64,000 nucleotides of DNA from Bdellovibrio bacteriovorus W (GTDB lineage Bacteria > Bdellovibrionota > Bdellovibrionia > Bdellovibrionales > Bdellovibrionaceae): the NCBI GenBank assembly GCA_000525675.1, contig CP002190.1, forward strand, positions 1,116,001-1,180,000. Reading direction: 5' to 3'. Under the pieces are notes generated by a model, which worked only from the letters and a program-made list of their open reading frames with translations, did no database searches and was not told where the DNA came from. Of this stretch, positions 54,100-64,000 are shown one piece after another; position 1 is the first letter of the stretch, and each line of letters opens with the position of its first letter. The translations under genes and the position numbers were made by a program.

Positions 54100-55344
54100 T
54101 TACTTTTTCACAGTGAGAGGGACCATTTCTACAGTGAAACGGGCACCTTCCACATACTGGTAAGCGATGTCACCAGAGAGATAGATCGAGTTGTTCTCTG
54201 GGTTGTACAGCCAGCCACCTTTAGCTTGTTGTGGGATCGCTTGGTTGCCGTAACGAACTTTCAACATCAACTGACCGTTCTTTTCAAGTCTCGGTCTTTG
54301 GCTTAAGAAGATTTCTTTAGCCAATGTTTTTGCTGTGATGTCGGAACCGATTTTCCCTAAGTCATCCCCAAATTTTGGGCTCGTAATCGCCATGATATGC
54401 TTTGCGCGAACCTCATCAGGAGTACCAGAGTTTTTATTGGCTTCCACGATAAGTTGCTCAAGGCGCTCCGGGCCGAAGCCCTTACAGATCCCAAGATTCT
54501 TAGGTGTCTTCACAGTCATGTCGAAGCACTCAGGATGGTATTTCGGGTGAACACGTAAATCCCAGTCTTTCACAGAGTCAGGATCGTTGGCCTTTACAAG
54601 AACTCCGTAAACAGAAACTTTTTCGCTCTTGCCACCTTTGAAATCAATCAAAGTGCGCGCCATCTGTTCAGGAGTGATGTTCGCTGTAGAGTCATCCGCA
54701 TCGGTCACGAAAATCACGACAAGTTGAGCATCTTTTCTGAAGAACCCTTCGTTCGTAGCGCCGCGACCTGTTTTTTGAAGAGCTGCTGCCAGAGGAGAGA
54801 ACATCTCTTCGTACTCTGGTCCACCTTGTTCATAAGGTGTCACACCGATTTTTAAAGTCGGAGCGATAAACGAACTGCCATCAGCTTTTGTGATGTAGCG
54901 ACGGTTGTTAGCGGTTTTACCTTGAGAGTTTTTAATAAATCTTAAATCGCCGATTTCGAAAGGATCTTTTTTCGCTTTCAAATATCTCTCAGAGCTATCC
55001 CAAACAGAGACAACACCGATATTGTAGTCGATCATTTTATTCTTCAAAAGACCCGCTGTGAAGCGATCCATGTTCTTGCTCAAGTTCTCTTGAGCAGAGC
55101 GCATACTATCAGAGTCATCCGTCACAAATAAAATATCAACTTGTGGGTTGAAGTCGAGTTGGCGTTGACCACCGTCTTCAGTAATCCAAGTGAAAGTTTG
55201 CTCCGCAATTGGATCGTATTGTGGGATCACAACTGGTGGTTCTTCCAAAGGTTTTTCTACGTAAAGAGTCGCTGATTCAGGACTGCACGCAGTTAAGAGC
55301 ATATAAGCAGAAACATAAATGGCGGCAACAAGGAGAGTTCTCAC
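54100..55344 (-). CDS. VWA-domain lipoprotein
   Basis: A 414-residue lipoprotein (signal RTLLVAAIYVSAYMLLTAC). The von Willebrand A domain begins at VDILFVTDDSDSMRSAQENL; D-x-S-x-S (DDSDS) is the metal-ion adhesion motif, with a later VIFVTDADDST strand and EEMFSPLAAALQKTG. VWA proteins usually mediate metal-dependent binding. Last gene of the minus-strand operon; its start overlaps the preceding stop by four bases. Confidence 0.8.
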   Translation of the reverse strand: MRTLLVAAIYVSAYMLLTACSPESATLYVEKPLEEPPVVIPQYDPIAEQTFTWITEDGGQRQLDFNPQVDILFVTDDSDSMRSAQENLSKNMDRFTAGLLKNKMIDYNIGVVSVWDSSERYLKAKKDPFEIGDLRFIKNSQGKTANNRRYITKADGSSFIAPTLKIGVTPYEQGGPEYEEMFSPLAAALQKTGRGATNEGFFRKDAQLVVIFVTDADDSTANITPEQMARTLIDFKGGKSEKVSVYGVLVKANDPDSVKDWDLRVHPKYHPECFDMTVKTPKNLGICKGFGPERLEQLIVEANKNSGTPDEVRAKHIMAITSPKFGDDLGKIGSDITAKTLAKEIFLSQRPRLEKNGQLMLKVRYGNQAIPQQAKGGWLYNPENNSIYLSGDIAYQYVEGARFTVEMVPLTVKK

Positions 55345-56372
55345 ATCTTCCTCCTAATGTTTTTCACACACGCTTTAGTGGCAACTTCGTATTTATCAAG
55401 TTCATCAATCCAAGGGCGTCCATCATCCATAAATACCAATTTGTCAGAGCCCACTTTTTGGAACTTTGTTTTTTCAAACTGATCAGCTTCAAGGCCTAAA
55501 TCTGTATGAACACGTTGAATCGCTTCAACTTCCACCAGGTTTAACTTTTGGATAGCTTTAAAGTTTGCTTCATTTTCAGCCAAAGCGATTTCTTTAATGC
55601 GTTTCTTTAAAGCCGTCATCGCACGATTTTGTGACTGTCTGATTTGGCGCTCAAGTTTTGTCGAACCAGCAGGTAGTGCAGCTAAAGCTTTTTCAGCGGC
55701 TTTAATTCTTAAAGCTTGAGTCTGAAACTCTTTGTCTCTGTGAATCAGTAATGGCAACTCACGAGCAGAGTCACCAAGGTCTGCCAACGTTAAAGGGAAG
55801 GAGTCTGCCTTCTTAAGAACAGTGGCAACCGCATCGCTAAAGCCAGTTTCAGAAAGGCTTTGCACTTTGATCATACGATTGCGTTGTTTTTCCTTAAACG
55901 TTTGATGTGTTTCAAACACACCTTGATAGTCACAAATTCTTAATTGTGAAAGAGACTGAAGAAGGTAAGCTTCAGGGCTTACGATATCAGAAAACTGTGG
56001 AGCTAAAAGAGTTTTCGACTGACTTAAAGCTTTGGAATAGTCTTCTTTGCGGAAGTGAGCCCAGCCTTTTTCTTCAACGGCTAAGAGCCACTGATCATCA
56101 CCACGTGGGATTTTATCATAGTTTGACAGAGCCTGGTCAAATTGACCTTGAGCAAATTGCTTACGAGCTAAATCCAAAGAAGATTTATTTTTCTTATCAA
56201 GATCTAAAGACAGAGCCTTCGCCTCAAGAGATTGAGTGCTAAAAGTTTTGTTTTTTTGAGTGGACCAATTTTTCGCCCACTCTGACGTAGAGACACGCTC
56301 AGATGCTAGAGCTGAAGAAGCTCCAACAATGAGAATGACTGATGTGCAAAGAGAGAGAACTTTTGTCATCAT
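55341..56372 (-). CDS. Periplasmic TPR-like protein
   Basis: A 343-residue exported helical protein; ATG 56372 overlaps the upstream stop as ATGA, so is preferred. Signal peptide MTKVLSLCTSVILIVGASSALA. TPR-like helix pairs run from about 55 to 150 (ARKQFAQGQFDQALSNYDKIP, EEKGWAHFRKEDYSKALSQSK), then a long Lys/Glu-rich helix region. Such TPR proteins are common scaffolds in gliding-type motor clusters. Confidence 0.65.
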   Translation of the reverse strand: MMTKVLSLCTSVILIVGASSALASERVSTSEWAKNWSTQKNKTFSTQSLEAKALSLDLDKKNKSSLDLARKQFAQGQFDQALSNYDKIPRGDDQWLLAVEEKGWAHFRKEDYSKALSQSKTLLAPQFSDIVSPEAYLLQSLSQLRICDYQGVFETHQTFKEKQRNRMIKVQSLSETGFSDAVATVLKKADSFPLTLADLGDSARELPLLIHRDKEFQTQALRIKAAEKALAALPAGSTKLERQIRQSQNRAMTALKKRIKEIALAENEANFKAIQKLNLVEVEAIQRVHTDLGLEADQFEKTKFQKVGSDKLVFMDDGRPWIDELDKYEVATKACVKNIRRKM

Positions 56373-57133
56373 AAGATCCATCCAATTCCAAGAGATCCAG
56401 TTACGATATCAAGGGAACGAGATCCAGTAGCGATTTGATCGTCATACTTTTGGTAACGAATTTCTGCGCGGGCAGAAACGTGCTTTGATAACCATGCACC
56501 GATACCTAAACCACCCGTAAGAACAGAAGTGTCACCGCTAGATAAAGAGATGTTTCCGCCACCTGCTAAAAGGTAAACGTCAAACTGAGTCACACCCATA
56601 TCTAGGAAGCTTGTTTTTCCATAGATTGGATACCAGTTGATAACAGCCATTGTAGAGCTCAGAGGGTAGTCAATATCCACAGAAAGAGCGCGGCCGCCAG
56701 CATTTACAGATTCGCGAGCTTGGTCGTAAATTCTTTTACCTTCGTTTGTGAGAGTGTTTCCGAAGTCATAGTAACGAACGCCGAGGGACCAGCGAGGAGT
56801 GAAATGATAATCTACTGCTGCTCCAATGCTTTGAGTTTTTACGTAGGCGTCGCCACCGAAAACAGAACCATAAGAAAGACCGAATTCAACAGTGTTTCTT
56901 CTCTCAACAATGCGCTCTTGAACGATACGTGAACGGCTTGTTGAACGGATTTTTTCCGCCATCTCCATAAGTTCTTTATTGCCACCTAAAGTATCAATGT
57001 CTTCAGCAACGTTGATTTTCTTCGCAGGCGCAGCATTTTTTGGAGCTGCCTTTTTCGAAGAGGCCATGCCTAAAGAACCACATAGAAGCACGCTCAAAAC
57101 TAGAGTTGTGGATAAAACTTTGAAGTTTCTCAT
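56369..57133 (-). CDS. Outer-membrane beta-barrel protein
   Basis: A 254-residue exported protein with signal MRNFKVLSTTLVLSVLLCGSLGMA, an Ala/Lys-rich spacer, a short coiled segment (about 45-75) and eight-strand-like barrel (VEFGLSYGSVFGGDAYV, WSLGVRYYDFGNTL, VSARAEIRYQKYDDQI). ATG 57133 overlaps the preceding stop by four bases (ATGA). It may be the outer-membrane end of the motor machine. Confidence 0.7.
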   Translation of the reverse strand: MRNFKVLSTTLVLSVLLCGSLGMASSKKAAPKNAAPAKKINVAEDIDTLGGNKELMEMAEKIRSTSRSRIVQERIVERRNTVEFGLSYGSVFGGDAYVKTQSIGAAVDYHFTPRWSLGVRYYDFGNTLTNEGKRIYDQARESVNAGGRALSVDIDYPLSSTMAVINWYPIYGKTSFLDMGVTQFDVYLLAGGGNISLSSGDTSVLTGGLGIGAWLSKHVSARAEIRYQKYDDQIATGSRSLDIVTGSLGIGWIL

Positions 57134-58497
57134 TTTGTAGCCTCCGTAGAGCAAAGGGAAGTGTCTTCTTGTGCTGCTGGTTGAACATTTAAAGTGTATT
57201 CAGTAACTTCAGAGTTTCTGCCGTTAGAGACACTGTATGCACTCATACGGATTTCACCTTTAAGTGCTTCTGCTTTTGCGTCGCAAGCGATATTCATCGT
57301 CAATGTACAGTCTTGTTTTGCAGTACCTTCTTTAGAGTCACCGCAAGAAACTTGAGGGTTGCCTGCTAAGTTAGATTTAGCACTCTCAACTCTAACAACA
57401 GAATTTTTATCCGCGGAGCTGACGATGAACTTAAGTGATACTTTTTGTCCTTTTTGAACTTCAAGAGCTTGTTGAGCTAAACCAGAAAGATCAAACTTTG
57501 GAGCTACAAGACCTTTTGTGTATTTGATTTTAACCTGAGCCACTTTTTCAGCTGTCGAAAGACCAGAAGGGTTGTAGGCCTTCACACTCAAGCGAACACG
57601 AGTGCCATCGGCGTTGCTGATAATTTTTCCATCTTTGCTCAGTTGAGGTTGAACAGAGATATTTTTAGTGTCAAAGATTAAAGAGAACTTCCAATTAGAA
57701 TCGCCTAGGTATTCAGGGTCTTTCTTGTTGAGGTCCGCAATGATGTGGCGGGAACCATCAAGTTCTAAGAACGAGTTACCAGCAGTGAGACTTGCGCCAT
57801 CATAGCTAATAACTAAACGAGGTTTTTGTGTTGAGCGACCATCAATACCAGGAACCTTCACAGTGATTGTAAATGGTGTCAAAGAGTCTTCATTGATTTC
57901 AGTAGGAAGTGCGATTTTAAGATCTGTCGGTGCTTTTTGGTTTTTAAAAAGGAAAAGGCTGATCTCTTTTTCGCGCACAAGTCCTTTTAAAAGCTGTAAG
58001 TCTTCAGGAGTTTTTGCTGAAACAACCTCAGCAGTCAATTTAACAGAGAAAGACTTCATCATAGCATTTGAATCGAGAGTGTAAACCTCAGGATTCCATG
58101 AAAGGATATAGATGTCTTTTTCGTCTTTAGAAGGAGTGAGTGTCGCACCTTTAGGAAGACCTTGTGCAACCAATTTAATTTGCACGTCTTGCAGAAGAGC
58201 GCTGGCGCGAATCTTAAATTTACTTTCTTCACCTTCGTTGAAAGTCATCTCAGAATCAGGAGTGATCACAATGAACTTCTCGTCGATAGTAGATTCTTCT
58301 TTAACAACAAGAACCGGCTTTTCGACTACTACCGTATTGGTAATCTCTCGCGGCTTATCTGGGCCAGCTTGCGCTTGAGCGCGGGCGTGGGCACGCATTT
58401 CGTCCAATCCGCTTGCAGGATCTTTTTGGTATTCACCACATCCAACCCCAAAAAGGGCTAGAACTAGGACGGGGATAAGTGCTTGAGAGTTTTTCAT
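57130..58497 (-). CDS. Lipoprotein with Ig/cadherin-like domains
   Basis: A 455-residue lipoprotein (MKNSQALIPVLVLALFGVGC). The mature part contains repeated beta-sandwich-like segments (MTFNEGEESKFKIRASALLQDV; EINEDSLTPFTITVKV; VQKGQKVSLKFIVSSAD), an arrangement typical of Ig- or cadherin-like surface proteins. ATG 58497 is chosen for the lipobox. Two Cys near the C-terminus may pair. Function unknown; by position it belongs to the motor operon. Confidence 0.65.
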   Translation of the reverse strand: MKNSQALIPVLVLALFGVGCGEYQKDPASGLDEMRAHARAQAQAGPDKPREITNTVVVEKPVLVVKEESTIDEKFIVITPDSEMTFNEGEESKFKIRASALLQDVQIKLVAQGLPKGATLTPSKDEKDIYILSWNPEVYTLDSNAMMKSFSVKLTAEVVSAKTPEDLQLLKGLVREKEISLFLFKNQKAPTDLKIALPTEINEDSLTPFTITVKVPGIDGRSTQKPRLVISYDGASLTAGNSFLELDGSRHIIADLNKKDPEYLGDSNWKFSLIFDTKNISVQPQLSKDGKIISNADGTRVRLSVKAYNPSGLSTAEKVAQVKIKYTKGLVAPKFDLSGLAQQALEVQKGQKVSLKFIVSSADKNSVVRVESAKSNLAGNPQVSCGDSKEGTAKQDCTLTMNIACDAKAEALKGEIRMSAYSVSNGRNSEVTEYTLNVQPAAQEDTSLCSTEATK

Positions 58498-58519
58498 GGG
58501 AACTGCTCCTCTTATCAAG

Positions 58520-59797
58520 TTATCTTGCGCTCACGCGCGTAAGTTCAAATGGGTAAAGTACGTCAACACTGACTGCTCCCACTGGACGAGGGAACTGCCA
58601 AGTTTTCATTCTAGCAATCATGCAGTTTTCAACAGTTCTTGAACCTAAAGAAGACTCAGCGACATTTGCTTTAGAGATCTTTCCATTAGGACCAATGATG
58701 AAGCTTACTGCCACGCGACCACCAATTGTTGGTTGCGCTCTTAAACCTTGTTCATAACAATATGTGATCTGACCTTTGTTACGATTAATCACAGCGATGA
58801 TTTGGTCTTGATCTAAACCACCTTCAACAGTGACTTCTTCATTTAAAGGAAGACTCGTTGCCGATGTACCACCAACCATAGAGATCTTTCCGTAACCAGC
58901 TTTGCCGCCACCAGAGCCACGTGTTCCGTAACCGCCAGCACCTTGAGCGCGTGCGCCTTCGCCCGCTGAACCTGCAATCAGACCGTTGCCTGGAAGGTAA
59001 CCTTTAGCGCCGCCGCGACCTGTAGTTCCGATACCGCCACCACCGTTGCCAGTTCCTGCTGCACGGATATTTTTTAGAGAATTCATATCAAGTCCTTCAG
59101 CGGACTTACTTCCCTTAGCAACTCCACCAAGAGCGGCTAGAGCTCCTACGCGGCGGATGTCCTTTGTTGGAGCTTGGCGAACAGCGGGTTGAGTTTTAGC
59201 CACTTGCTGCGTTGGACGGGGGGGAACTGTTTTATTGACAACTTTAGGAGTCGGTTTTTTAGGGGTTGCCACTTTAGCAACCTTTTTAACTGTTGGCGTG
59301 ATCTTCTTTTGAGCCGCTTTTACAGTTTCAACTTTTTGCTTAATAGGAGCTGGAGTTTCCTTCTTAGGAATAACAATAGTCACCAGAGGTTGTTCTGGAG
59401 CTTTATTAATGAAGCTTGTGTAGACCCAAGAGCTCAATAGTAATAAAACAATCGCAGCAGCATGGCCTACAGAGGCTTTTTTCAATGCAGCAATAAGAGT
59501 TTTATCGTCATCTTCTTCTGGTAGATTGTAAGAAGGGCTGTTAACTGCGTTGTCTGAATTTAAACGCAGACGACCCAAACCTACTAAATCTACAGAGTCT
59601 GTCATTTCATTGACTTGAATAGATTTAATAAGTGCATAGGAAATTTCGTTGTCATCTAGAACTGAAAGATCAGAGAACGCCTCAACACGACGAGAGTCTT
59701 TGAGATAGACAATATGAATCGCATTGGACTGTACTGCAAATGTGCGTACTTTCTGTCCTAGGGAATTTTCTAAAATTAATAATTTAGCTGCGTTCAT
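58520..59797 (-). CDS. AgmX/GltG-like TonB-type periplasmic linker protein
   Basis: A 425-residue inner-membrane protein. A cytoplasmic domain (about 1-110, with FHA/GYF-type regions not clear) precedes one membrane helix near 112-132 (AAAIVLLLLSSWVYTSFI), a Lys/Pro/Val-rich periplasmic spacer (TPTVKKVAKVATPKKPTPKVV) and a Gly-rich linker. The C-terminal domain (DQIIAVINRNKGQITYCYEQGLR...VAVSFIIGPNGKISKANVAESSLG...VENCMIARMKTWQFPRP) is the AgmX/PglI TonB-like domain with two Cys. This family links the proton-driven motor to the outer envelope. Confidence 0.85.
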   Translation of the reverse strand: MNAAKLLILENSLGQKVRTFAVQSNAIHIVYLKDSRRVEAFSDLSVLDDNEISYALIKSIQVNEMTDSVDLVGLGRLRLNSDNAVNSPSYNLPEEDDDKTLIAALKKASVGHAAAIVLLLLSSWVYTSFINKAPEQPLVTIVIPKKETPAPIKQKVETVKAAQKKITPTVKKVAKVATPKKPTPKVVNKTVPPRPTQQVAKTQPAVRQAPTKDIRRVGALAALGGVAKGSKSAEGLDMNSLKNIRAAGTGNGGGGIGTTGRGGAKGYLPGNGLIAGSAGEGARAQGAGGYGTRGSGGGKAGYGKISMVGGTSATSLPLNEEVTVEGGLDQDQIIAVINRNKGQITYCYEQGLRAQPTIGGRVAVSFIIGPNGKISKANVAESSLGSRTVENCMIARMKTWQFPRPVGAVSVDVLYPFELTRVSAR

Positions 59798-59807
59798 AAT
59801 TTTGCCT

Positions 59808-60128
59808 TTAGTTACGTCCTACTTCTTGTTGACGGCGATCTTCAAAATTAGTTCTTCCGTTTAACAAGTCATCCAACAATTTATCGTTCTCAACCGTGGC
59901 TGCTGTCCCCATGGAGGTTTGGTATTTACCTCTTAGAGAAGAGCCCGTGAATCGAAACGATGTGCCCAGTTTTGCCTGTTTAGAGACCGCCTGTTTAGGG
60001 GCTGATCGCTTTACAGTTTGTGTCGCTTTTTGAGTCACTTTCTTTCCTTGTTTCGTTTTAGCCAACACATCCTGAGAACTCAGTGAAATAGTAAGCAAAA
60101 CAAGGGCCAGAGAAATTATTGATTTCAT
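59808..60128 (-). CDS. Small exported basic protein
   Basis: A 106-residue protein with signal peptide MKSIISLALVLLTISLSSQDVLA, a Lys/Gln/Thr-rich basic stretch (KTKQGKKVTQKATQTVKRS) and a short tail. It overlaps the large TPR gene by four bases and precedes the AgmX-like gene by 10 bp. No family recognised; probably a periplasmic accessory or peptidoglycan-binding protein. Confidence 0.6.
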   Translation of the reverse strand: MKSIISLALVLLTISLSSQDVLAKTKQGKKVTQKATQTVKRSAPKQAVSKQAKLGTSFRFTGSSLRGKYQTSMGTAATVENDKLLDDLLNGRTNFEDRRQQEVGRN

Positions 60129-63085
60129 AGGCTATTTCCTCTCTGTAAGTGAGTTAAACGCGCTTCCAAGTAAGACGGCATTAAAGGATGGCCAATTTTT
60201 GTCTCGATTGCCTTTAAACGCTCAATATTGCGCGCGTTCGAAGGATCTTCAGACACGTTTGTGCGAGCTGCGGTTAGATCATTCATCGTGAAAGACTTTT
60301 CGCGAAGAGCGTTCTCAACAGCAGACTTCATCGGGCCATTTCCAGGAAGTTCTGCAAGAAGTGAAAGTTCCTTAGCTAATAAATTACGAAGCTCAGGTCC
60401 TGCAGATTGGAAGTCTTTTAAAGTTTGCGCCAATGCTGGAGACTTTGCCCAGATGGCCTGTTGCTGTTGTTGCGCCGTTTGAGCTTTGACAAAGTAAGGA
60501 CGTGATTGGTTTTTAAGAAGTCCTAAGTACTGATTTTGTTCAGCGGGGCTTAATCCTTTTGGTAAAGGAAGTGCGGCAAGATCACTTACAAGGCGTAGGT
60601 TTTCATAAGCTACGATATTGAGAGCCATCATCTGCGCTGTAACGTCTTTAAGTTTTAAGCTTTCTGCCAAAAGACCATCTGCTTTTTGCAGCAGGTTGAT
60701 TCTCTCAGTAAGAGTTCTTTGAACTGTGCGGTCGTTTTTAGTATTGAGCTTGTGGGCACCAATAATTACTTTCTCACGCTGAACCTTTGCATAGAAATCC
60801 TGTTTTGCAATGAAGTTAGGCGCTGATTGGCGGCGCAACTCTGGCATTTCAAGAACTGACTTTAATGCCTTCGCATTTCCAGTTTTTGCATACACCACTA
60901 AAACAGCTTCATTTAAAAGAGCCGGTCTCTTTTTAAGTTCCGGAGCTTGTTCTTTCAATTCGCTGATAGAGTTTTTAGCCGTCATCACTAAGCGACTGCG
61001 AACTAGGAAAGATCTTTGTCCGCTAAGGCCTGCTTTAAGAGAGGCTTTATAGTGTTTGCTTGAGTTCATGCCCGCAAGGTCTGCTAAAGTTCCAAGGCGG
61101 AATTCTTTTTCGGCCTGAGAAATTTTAGGCTGATTCATGCGTAAAGCTGTTGAGTAAGCATTTCTGAAATCAAGCTTTCTTTCGTAATAACCTGTCATTT
61201 GCTCAAGAACGTCTTCTCTTTGGGCTTCACTCAAACCAGGGAGTGCAAGTTGCGCGTTGGAAGAAACGATAAACGTTTTATCGTCTCCCACTTTCTGAGC
61301 AAGGACTGATTGGTTCTTATAGAAAAGCATTTTTTCAGCCGCAGAGGCCGATTTAATTTTTGAATCATCTAGAGCACGTAATGACTTTTTCAAATCCGAC
61401 TGACTAGATTTTTGGTTATTCGCAACTGTTGCTACTTGATTCATTAAAGATTTACGCGCAATAGTTTCAAACTCAGCACGGTCTTTTTTGAAAATTTCAG
61501 AGTATTCCCATGCTAACGATTCTAAGCGAGATTCATTTTTAGACTGAACCAATGAATCTAGAGAAAGATCCGCAGCTTTCTTTCTAAGTGCCAAGTTGCC
61601 TTTTTCATCTTTTGCCAGAGTTTCAAAGTCTTTTGCAGAATTTGAGAACTTCTTTTCTTGATAGTTTAGATAAGCTAACTGGTAGCGAACCTCAAATCCC
61701 TTAACTTCATCATCAGATGTTTTAAGGAAGTGCTGGTAGGCTTCTCTTTGTAGTTTAATGCTCTTAGATTGTTCTGCTGCTGAGATTTCATTGAGAAGAG
61801 CTTCGTTGCGCTCTTTATCGGAAGCCTTCTTATTCGTGCTGATAGAACGGTAAAGCTTTACCGCTCCGTCGAAGTTATTTAGTTCTAACGCTAAGAATGC
61901 CGCTCTATGAGTCATTTCTGAATCGAGAGGGAATGCAGAGTTATAGGCTAAGTAAGCATTCATTAGATCAGAGTCAGGTTTTAGCTTCTTTGAACGATGA
62001 AGTTCTGTGACAAAAGTGCGCATAGACTTTTGCAGACTCTCACATTTGTCTTTAGAGCAACCGTCAAAGTCTTTTGTCGCTTTTGTAAACTCCAAAACAG
62101 ATTGCTTTGATTGGCCGCGATCGTAATAGATTTGCGCTAGCTGAATAGAAGCTTCTAAACGCTCGTCTTTGCTTAAAGCGTTATTAGCCAAATAGCGGCT
62201 CATGATTTCTTGAGCTGCTTTCTTTTGACCAATACGATCTGTCTCTTTTGCAAAGTGAAGCATCATCTCTTTGCGTTTTTCAACCGGAGTTAAGTTCTCA
62301 AATGTAGATATCTCTTTTTCAGTGACCGATTTCTTAGTGTAGAAAGTAGCAAGGTCTCTAAGAATATCCGAGTGAAAAGGAGCATCGTAAGTTTTTCCGC
62401 CTTCAGTTTCACGAGTGATTTGCGATGGGTCTTTTAATAGAGACTCCAGTGTGTTGATAGCGCGGTTCAGTTGATCCGTATTGTATTGACTCCAAGCAAG
62501 GTTGTATTGAGTCAAGTAACGGTTCTGTAGGGATTTGCTCTTGAGAGCAATTTGGTAGTGTTCTTTAGCTTTATTGAATTCGCCTTTTTGGAATAAAAGA
62601 TCACCAAGGCCAATGCGCGAACGGGTGACAATGTCACCCTTAATGCTTTTCTTTTTTTGATCCTTTATAATGTCTTCATAAAGGGAAATGGCTTTGTCGG
62701 TTTTTCCGGCCATCTCATAAAGATGGGCTAGTTGGAAAAGAACCGGACCATGTTCATTCAGTTTCAAATCTTTTAAGAGAGTTTCATAGATGCCGATAGC
62801 TTGTTCGCGATCGGTCATAGAGCCTTTGCACGAAGTATTGCAATTAGCTTCAATCTCAAGCATGAAGCGTGTACGAGCTCTCTCTGCAAGAAGATCCGCC
62901 AAGCGCTGTTGGCTGACCATCCAAGAAGGGGAGTTCTTTTCAAGAGTAGAAAGGACTCGTTCCATCTTTTTGATAACGAGATCCTGTGTTTCAATATTCA
63001 TCTTCTCAGAAGCATAGGCCGGAGAGGCTGTTAACACGCCTGAAAAAAACGCACTTAAAATAAGGAAATCGTTTAGCTTTTTCAT
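60125..63085 (-). CDS. Large periplasmic TPR protein
   Basis: A 986-residue exported protein with signal MKKLNDFLILSAFFSGVLTASPAYA. At least five TPR-like pairs are visible in residues 70-330 (HGPVLFQLAHLYEMAGKTDKAISLYEDII; GDLLFQKGEFNKAKEHYQIALK; QYNLAWSQYNTDQLNRAINTLESLL) and more degenerate ones follow to about 800. The C-terminus is helical and basic. Likely a scaffold of the envelope motor. Four-base overlaps with both neighbours suggest strict co-translation. Confidence 0.8.
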   Translation of the reverse strand: MKKLNDFLILSAFFSGVLTASPAYASEKMNIETQDLVIKKMERVLSTLEKNSPSWMVSQQRLADLLAERARTRFMLEIEANCNTSCKGSMTDREQAIGIYETLLKDLKLNEHGPVLFQLAHLYEMAGKTDKAISLYEDIIKDQKKKSIKGDIVTRSRIGLGDLLFQKGEFNKAKEHYQIALKSKSLQNRYLTQYNLAWSQYNTDQLNRAINTLESLLKDPSQITRETEGGKTYDAPFHSDILRDLATFYTKKSVTEKEISTFENLTPVEKRKEMMLHFAKETDRIGQKKAAQEIMSRYLANNALSKDERLEASIQLAQIYYDRGQSKQSVLEFTKATKDFDGCSKDKCESLQKSMRTFVTELHRSKKLKPDSDLMNAYLAYNSAFPLDSEMTHRAAFLALELNNFDGAVKLYRSISTNKKASDKERNEALLNEISAAEQSKSIKLQREAYQHFLKTSDDEVKGFEVRYQLAYLNYQEKKFSNSAKDFETLAKDEKGNLALRKKAADLSLDSLVQSKNESRLESLAWEYSEIFKKDRAEFETIARKSLMNQVATVANNQKSSQSDLKKSLRALDDSKIKSASAAEKMLFYKNQSVLAQKVGDDKTFIVSSNAQLALPGLSEAQREDVLEQMTGYYERKLDFRNAYSTALRMNQPKISQAEKEFRLGTLADLAGMNSSKHYKASLKAGLSGQRSFLVRSRLVMTAKNSISELKEQAPELKKRPALLNEAVLVVYAKTGNAKALKSVLEMPELRRQSAPNFIAKQDFYAKVQREKVIIGAHKLNTKNDRTVQRTLTERINLLQKADGLLAESLKLKDVTAQMMALNIVAYENLRLVSDLAALPLPKGLSPAEQNQYLGLLKNQSRPYFVKAQTAQQQQQAIWAKSPALAQTLKDFQSAGPELRNLLAKELSLLAELPGNGPMKSAVENALREKSFTMNDLTAARTNVSEDPSNARNIERLKAIETKIGHPLMPSYLEARLTHLQRGNSL

Positions 63086-63582
63086 TGTCTTGGTACCACC
63101 GCAAATTTCATTTTTTCAAAACCTGATAAAGAGCTCGCCTTTAAAAGAGGATCTAGATCCTGGTAGCGCATCTCTTGGTCTGCTTGAACAAGAAGCTCGA
63201 CAGTGTCGGCTTTTTTGTTCTTCGTAAGCTCCGCTTTAAGCTCGGCTAACTTCTGTGGAAGCTGTCTAATAGAAACAACTTTATCGTTGATCTTATAAAC
63301 GCCTTTTTCGATAGAGATCACGGGAACTTCTTTATCCAAAGAAACTCCGTGCTCTGCCATTGGAAGATTCATCTTTGCTGGAACATCGGATTCGATTCCG
63401 TTGTTTTGAGTCCCAATCAAAAGATAAATCACGATGATCGAGAAAGCATCGATCAGTGAAGTTAACGGCAAAGACATCGCGAGACCCGCAATGCCTTTTT
63501 TCTTTTTACCTGGCTTCATTCCCTGTATATCGGACAAGGGAGATCTGCGCTTACTAGAATCTAAAAAAGAAGTTGGTTTCAT
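63082..63582 (-). CDS. ExbD/TolR-family motor subunit
   Basis: A 166-residue bitopic protein. One helix near residues 42-62 (LTSLIDAFSIIVIYLLIGTQ) with the Asp (SLIDAFS) that carries protons in TolR/ExbD; the periplasmic domain (VDVPAKMNLP-like SDVPAKMNLPMAEHG, VSIEKGVYKINDKVVSI) follows the ExbD pattern. The neighbour upstream is a second ExbD, as in the AglR-AglQ-AglS motor of Myxococcus. Four-base overlap with the TPR gene. Confidence 0.85.
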   Translation of the reverse strand: MKPTSFLDSSKRRSPLSDIQGMKPGKKKKGIAGLAMSLPLTSLIDAFSIIVIYLLIGTQNNGIESDVPAKMNLPMAEHGVSLDKEVPVISIEKGVYKINDKVVSIRQLPQKLAELKAELTKNKKADTVELLVQADQEMRYQDLDPLLKASSLSGFEKMKFAVVPRQ

Positions 63583-63588
63583 AAATTC

Positions 63589-64000
63589 CTACCCAAGAGG
63601 GGATAAACCCACGCCTTCAAATTGAAATTGTTTAAGTTTGTCCATAATGCGAATAACATCGCCGTAAGCGGCTTGCGCTTCCGGAGTTACCACACCTGTT
63701 TTTAGCTCAGGCCACTGAGCGCGTAAGCCTTCAAGCTTCTTTTCCAAAGCCGCCCAGTTTACACCGCCACGGCTTGCTTGAATGCTATCCTCATGTCTTT
63801 TTGCATTTGGAAGATCCCGCAAAGAGAGTTGAACTGCACCCTGTGTGTTTACCGTGATCCACAAGGAGGGAGGATTTGTCGCACCTGCCACAGAGTTATC
63901 ACCAATCGCTTGACGTGTGTCGATAGTACCAATCTGAACCCAAACCGCTGTTAGCAGAAGGAAGCAGATCATCACTGACAAGATGTCGAGGATCGGAAGA
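63589..64000 (-). CDS. ExbD/TolR-family motor subunit, 5' end outside window
   Basis: The frame is open to the right edge. Residues LPILDILSVMICFLLLTAVWV show the helix with the proton-carrying Asp of ExbD/TolR, followed by a periplasmic domain (SLWITVNTQGAVQLSLRDLP). An apparent start at TTG 63981 would cut the helix, so the gene starts beyond the window. A TolQ/ExbB partner is predicted just outside. Confidence 0.85.
   Translation of the reverse strand, partial: LPILDILSVMICFLLLTAVWVQIGTIDTRQAIGDNSVAGATNPPSLWITVNTQGAVQLSLRDLPNAKRHEDSIQASRGGVNWAALEKKLEGLRAQWPELKTGVVTPEAQAAYGDVIRIMDKLKQFQFEGVGLSPLG

Follow-up and report, generated by a model that had tools for sequence, protein, structure and literature searches.

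The stretch of DNA analysed here (the window) comprises 64,000 nucleotides of Bdellovibrio bacteriovorus W, bases 1116001-1180000 of a genome that forms a single contig of 3,006,992 bases; our subject is a ten-gene operon at the right-hand end of this stretch, which by its sequence is a motor operon of the known Agl-Glt type (Table 1). The operon is complete, lies entirely on the minus strand and runs from exbB, its first gene, to a gene for a lipoprotein with a VWA domain, its last. A preliminary description had listed two ExbD/TolR subunits, two TPR proteins, a linker, an immunoglobulin (Ig)-like lipoprotein, a barrel and a VWA lipoprotein in one run; all of these are present in that order, and the ExbB/TolQ gene that it expected just right of the window is indeed found there. 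Its list lacked the gene of the 106-residue secreted protein, for which neither Pfam nor NCBIfam gave a family match. The genes were said to be joined by mostly four-base overlaps, which is slightly overstated: there are four such overlaps (ExbD2/TPR, TPR/small protein, Ig-like/barrel and TPR/VWA), one overlap of 13 bases and three junctions at which the genes stand 6, 10 and about 22 bases apart, and a 2-base gap separates exbB from the first exbD gene outside the window. The first 20 loci retrieved, at genus and family level, all have the same gene order and mostly the same overlaps, and the ten-gene order was found in about 40 loci overall, in a looser version across the order. A set of ten genes that keeps its order and most of its overlaps throughout the genus is not a product of chance.

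Table 1. Genes of the operon and associated features (positions in window coordinates unless marked otherwise).
Feature	Position	Strand	Evidence or remark
exbB (ExbB/TolQ)	genome 1180041-1180730, next gene right of the window	-	
First ExbD/TolR (AglQ/S type), 149 residues	63589..64000, cut by the window edge; full to 64038 = genome 1179589-1180038 (L008:14589-15038)	-	Pfam ExbD 4.7e-15
Second ExbD/TolR, 166 residues	63082..63582	-	Pfam ExbD 4.1e-18
Large periplasmic TPR protein, GltD position, 986 residues	60125..63085	-	Pfam TPR_2 4.5e-12
Small protein with signal peptide, GltF position, 106 residues	59808..60128	-	kept in all operons
GltG-like linker with TonB/AgmX tail, 425 residues, transmembrane segment near residue 115, Gly-rich periplasmic part	58520..59797	-	
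Ig-like lipoprotein, all-beta domains	57130..58497	-	alignment, conservation and length table, low-confidence model
Outer-membrane beta-barrel, GltA/GltB family	56369..57133	-	NCBIfam OMP_myx_plus 2.2e-34
Second periplasmic TPR protein, GltC-like, 346 residues	55341..56381	-	NCBIfam GltC 1.8e-15
VWA/MIDAS lipoprotein, 414 residues, GTG start	54100..55344	-	NCBIfam and profile comparison
Sigma-54 promoter	genome 1180770-1180785 (window-equivalent 64770-64785; L008:15770-15785)		exact consensus
Bd0875 adhesin gene	HD100 G006:C1:826930-828051; W G000:C1:615647-616768; JSS G025:C1:756855-757973		

The operon brings together one ExbB (AglR) and two ExbD (AglQ, AglS) proteins. The residues of the proton path are retained: Thr137 and Thr171 of ExbB and the transmembrane Asp45 of ExbD2 are invariant in all 31 orthologues, and the transmembrane Asp18 of ExbD1 is kept in 28 of the 31. 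The linker matches the NCBIfam model of GltG (2.5e-32, 112 bits over its C-terminal half, against an equivalog cut-off of 650 bits) and carries an AgmX/PglI tail (myxo_SS_tail, 8.5e-29, 99.5 bits against a cut-off of 40), and its match to AgmX/GltJ (1.4e-9, 38 bits) covers only the shared GltJ tail. The earlier name was AgmX/TonB-like linker; the protein has this tail and a TonB-type C-terminus but is closer to GltG, and an AgmX/GltJ identity was rejected on the difference in score. The match of the second TPR protein to GltC spans about 110 residues. Because these matches are partial and fall below the equivalog cut-offs, we regard the linker and the second TPR protein as relatives of Myxococcus GltG and GltC, not as certified equivalents. 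The NCBIfam GltD model gave no match to the large TPR protein, which is therefore called GltD-like by its position and TPR content. Myxococcus xanthus Agl-Glt (AglRQS, GltA-K and CglB) shares with the window operon the single ExbB with two ExbD proteins, the GltG-like linker with its AgmX/PglI tail, the GltC-like TPR protein, the myxobacterial barrel and a VWA outer-membrane lipoprotein, which is the adhesive end in Myxococcus; the window operon differs in that the VWA and Ig-like lipoproteins are both encoded inside it. The adjacent exbB and the profile matches bear out the proposed likeness to Agl-Glt.

The VWA gene is present in 41 of the 41 operons whose contig extends far enough (39 retrieved loci, the window and L041), with a weak match (2.4e-4) in locus L072. 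The lipobox Cys20 is invariant (29/29), as are Asp76, Ser78 and Ser80 of the MIDAS motif DxSxS and the loop-3 Asp215, and the motif does not vary in 32 sequences. NCBIfam searches returned a weak match to the CglD VWA region (1.6e-6), a match to a Bdellovibrio MIDAS adhesin (7.3e-6) and none to CglB. In profile comparison the protein matched Bd1483 end to end (99.8%) and Bd0875 over 283 columns (99.3%); the alignment with Bd1483 covers both termini, which in these adhesins together form the small beta domain that holds the inserted VWA domain, and the lipobox, the DxSxS VWA domain and the C-terminal beta region align with both proteins along most of the length. Unlike Bd0875, the window protein lacks the cap, and the Bd0875 gene lies outside any Glt operon. 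Structure prediction gave only a hint, since the AlphaFold model was built from two sequences and is poor (mean pLDDT 44.8); Foldseek pointed to integrin beta, and a PDB profile search returned a weak VWA match only. On these alignments the window VWA lipoprotein is a relative of the Bd0875/Bd1483 MIDAS adhesins. The paper on these adhesins places Bd0875 where predator and prey meet and finds that invasions can fail when its MIDAS aspartate is lost; the available part of it draws no link between adhesins and Glt operons (PMC11003981). A VWA/MIDAS adhesin as a fixed part of the motor appears to be new. A related VWA lipoprotein at L041:3475-4764 has its lipobox and VWA domain separated by a long Thr-Pro repeat that resembles a stalk for surface display.

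Contrary to the earlier view, the classic set does include a VWA lipoprotein: in Myxococcus this is CglB, which the Glt complex recruits and which serves as the adhesin for gliding (PMC13104615; PMC4488436). Bdellovibrio has characterised MIDAS adhesins of the same family (PMC11003981). By analogy, the window VWA protein may act in a CglB-like adhesin role. Both lipoproteins had been suggested to be adhesins; there is good support for this in the case of the VWA protein, and the case for the Ig-like lipoprotein is circumstantial. The latter evolves fastest of the operon's proteins and is the least conserved: its median identity in the genus is 50%, where ExbB reaches 85% and the VWA protein 64%. 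It is also the most variable in length, from 338 to 476 residues in the genus. Its lipobox Cys is invariant in the alignment, and where homology is no longer detectable the slot between linker and barrel is still filled by a lipoprotein of 335-711 residues. This gradient of conservation suits a putative exposed part. A PDB profile search gave no match; the AlphaFold model, again from only two sequences, is poor (mean pLDDT 47.9), and its Foldseek matches to cadherin/Ig tandem domains are a hint only.

Four Glt-type clusters are known in B. bacteriovorus HD100 (PMC2797640, PMC3169522). The window operon is orthologous to the HD100 operon at 388-398 kb, with gene-by-gene identities of 48-81%. 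In place and gene content the latter fits Bd0412-Bd0420, published as the "tonB/agl" Bdellovibrio gliding/agl cluster (PMC2797640) and named Bd0411-0421 in a 2025 proteome paper (PMC12546842); the VWA orthologue is Bd0411 or Bd0412. The operon as such is therefore known, because its HD100 orthologue has already been published. Both strains have the same ten genes and the same promoter type, but the protein sequences of W differ and its Ig-like protein is about 100 residues longer at the C-terminus. In HD100 the operon is induced 4-7 fold at 30 min of predation, a rise that host-independent growth does not bring (PMC2797640). Its proteins are most abundant at 45-60 min, and a use in moving inside the bdelloplast has been suggested (PMC12546842).

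In a tree of ExbB, ExbD and GltD a single clade (SH-aLRT 100) unites the window type with the Bd2368 (exit) type; its operons have ten genes, those of the Ig-like and VWA lipoproteins among them, and it is separate from the Bd1473 and Bd0828 types. The HD100 exit cluster Bd2368-Bd2377 is thus a sister subtype with the same ten genes, both lipoproteins included; unlike the window type, it lacks a sigma-54 promoter, and its protein levels are highest at exit from the prey (PMC12546842). A VWA lipoprotein is carried by the exit-type cluster and also by the Bd1473 type, where it is Bd1483. The exit-type cluster is absent from the whole genomes of W and NC01, so its proposed role in leaving the prey is not universal.

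Regulation sets the window type apart. An exact sigma-54 promoter, TGGCACTTTAGTTGCT (consensus TGGCAC-N5-TTGCW), is predicted 55 bases before exbB, and a site is found 49-86 bases before exbB in all 21 window-type loci (15 exact, four with one mismatch and two with two) as well as in eight of ten more distant loci; in shuffled upstream regions it turned up in 0-4% of cases. The motif positions are 94% identical among 19 loci, as against 27-38% in the flanks. Whole-locus scans allowing at most one mismatch found no site in the Bd0828-, Bd1473- and Bd2368-type loci of HD100, W and JSS, nor did one stand at the start of five further exit-type clusters. Exact sites number 10 in the HD100 genome and 12 in that of W, the reversed pattern 0-1, and each strain has one rpoN and many activators. 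A canonical sigma-54 promoter before this operon type is unreported in the literature searched and appears to be new. It fits the unique early induction of the operon, a correlation that would offer a testable reason why only one of four similar operons is on at 30 min of predation, and a route to the regulator that senses prey contact.

Farther upstream, by about 60-80 bases, lies a dyad of the form GTGAC-N7/10-GTCAC, which 10 of 31 loci carry in exact form and which may bind a putative activator. In W it reads GTGACAAATCCCGTCAC (genome 1180826-1180842; L008:15826-15842), a candidate activator site; the perfect form GTGACG-N8-CGTCAC stands at the same place in HD100 and also occurs once in W, at 1200306. 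Among the other exact-consensus sigma-54 sites examined, an exact copy was found at one W promoter. With so few exact copies among the loci and only this one other W promoter, the dyad was rejected as a clear regulon mark. The small sigma-54 sets of HD100 and W have flagellar-type and envelope or secreted proteins downstream and are not described in the literature searched; two of the other sites precede genes that, read from their sequence, would be of flagellar rod type in one case and FliL-like in the other.

Within the genus, window-type GltD occurs in 21 of 21 sampled genomes. In the genus of the epibiotic B. exovorus JSS, six sampled genomes, JSS among them, have no match at all, and four further ones have a distant relative, placed in two cases with the exit type. 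JSS lacks the window-type operon and has only the Bd0828 type; because it has rpoN, it lost the operon, not the regulator. In HD100, W, NC01 and JSS, 32-42 kb separate the Bd0875 gene from the Bd0828-type Glt cluster. Since JSS has retained just a single Glt motor and a single close relative of Bd0875, Bd0875 and the Bd0828-type motor may work together.

We propose that the locus is probably the W copy of an early-predation Agl-Glt operon, whose own VWA adhesin grips the prey during entry or periplasmic establishment. The gene set establishes the predicted parts of such a machine, namely ExbB and two ExbD proteins in the inner membrane, a GltG-like linker, a TPR scaffold, one barrel and two lipoproteins, and its action on prey is what we infer from them. 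Sigma-54 and a prey-responsive activator would turn the operon on after contact; proton flow through ExbB-ExbD would move the GltG-like linker, and the TPR proteins would relay this movement across the periplasm to the outer membrane, where the barrel would hold the VWA lipoprotein and its metal site would grip the prey envelope. This would let the predator pull on its prey as it enters, or establish itself in the bdelloplast. What this analysis adds is that the VWA/MIDAS lipoprotein is a fixed component of the operon and belongs to the Bd0875 family, that the Ig-like lipoprotein is variable, that a sigma-54 switch appears to precede the operon and that JSS is without it. The locus would offer a concrete motor-adhesin pair, co-encoded and invariantly linked across the order, in which Asp76 of DxSxS is the residue to target.

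The main alternative is energised transport, in which the TonB-like linker would power uptake or secretion through the outer membrane during predation, as the 2010 authors raised for Bd0412-0420 (PMC2797640). The TonB-type C-terminus and the induction at prey contact agree with such a role, but the operon has no TonB-dependent receptor, secretin or substrate-binding protein, its barrel is small, of OmpA size and of the Glt family, and two TPR scaffolds with a VWA lipoprotein better fit an adhesion machine; we consider transport unlikely. An Nfs-like machine, which would move a surface polymer or put it in place, for instance to wrap the predator inside its prey or in the bdellocyst of W, would have a precedent in Nfs, the Glt paralogue for the Myxococcus spore coat and a known other use of the same motor (PMC3858216), and would agree with expression inside prey and with the bdellocysts that strain W makes (PMC5941755). 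It appears quite improbable for an operon that is conserved order-wide, also in strains not known to encyst, that has no polysaccharide genes adjoining it and whose VWA adhesin points to surface gripping. A plain paralogue of Tol-Pal or TonB-ExbBD that maintains the envelope would share the common ExbB, ExbD and TonB_C folds, but is hardly credible and was rejected, because the GltG, GltC and barrel profiles are of the gliding type and largely exclude it, neither TolB nor Pal is in the operon, a separate TolQRA-like trio (ExbB-ExbD-TonB tail) lies at 128-132 kb of the W genome, and the HD100 orthologue is prey-induced. Of the seven MotA/ExbB genes in the W genome, three belong to Glt-type clusters. 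With exbB adjacent and the profiles of the gliding type, neither of the two findings that the preliminary description had named as refuting it came about, and its interpretation is partly supported overall.

Several observations weigh against the proposed prey-gripping motor. A domain search found no FHA domain in the linker of the window or in its HD100 orthologue, in contrast to Myxococcus GltG; the Bd0828-type GltG of W carries one (3e-13). The operon has a single OMP_myx_plus barrel, not GltA plus GltB, and so lacks the second barrel that the HD100 Bd0828-type cluster has. It has no open reading frame for GltE. None was found for GltI, GltJ or GltK, and GltH was likewise not found; GltH-K have been published as absent from Bdellovibrio (PMC3169522). 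The residue aligned to E213 of Bd0875 is Ala216, so that this acidic loop-3 residue appears not to be kept, a one-residue shift of the alignment being possible. Deletion of bd1483 alone leaves predation by HD100 normal (PMC11003981). The epibiotic sample is thin, a single named genome taken as B. exovorus JSS, and motility, surface exposure and a prey ligand of the window system are predictions only.

A broader scheme is offered tentatively and seems doubtful as it stands: Bdellovibrio would use different Glt motors at different stages, and every motor would have a VWA adhesin of its own. The window type would be sigma-54-switched and fired by prey contact to grip the prey from within the envelope. 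It would then be the missing adhesin-motor pair for periplasmic entry, and its loss would mark the epibiotic lifestyle.

Next to the operon, a divergent gene (L008:16150-19179) encodes a lipoprotein-like protein of 1010 residues with bacterial Ig-like and Lcl C-terminal (DUF1566-type) domains.

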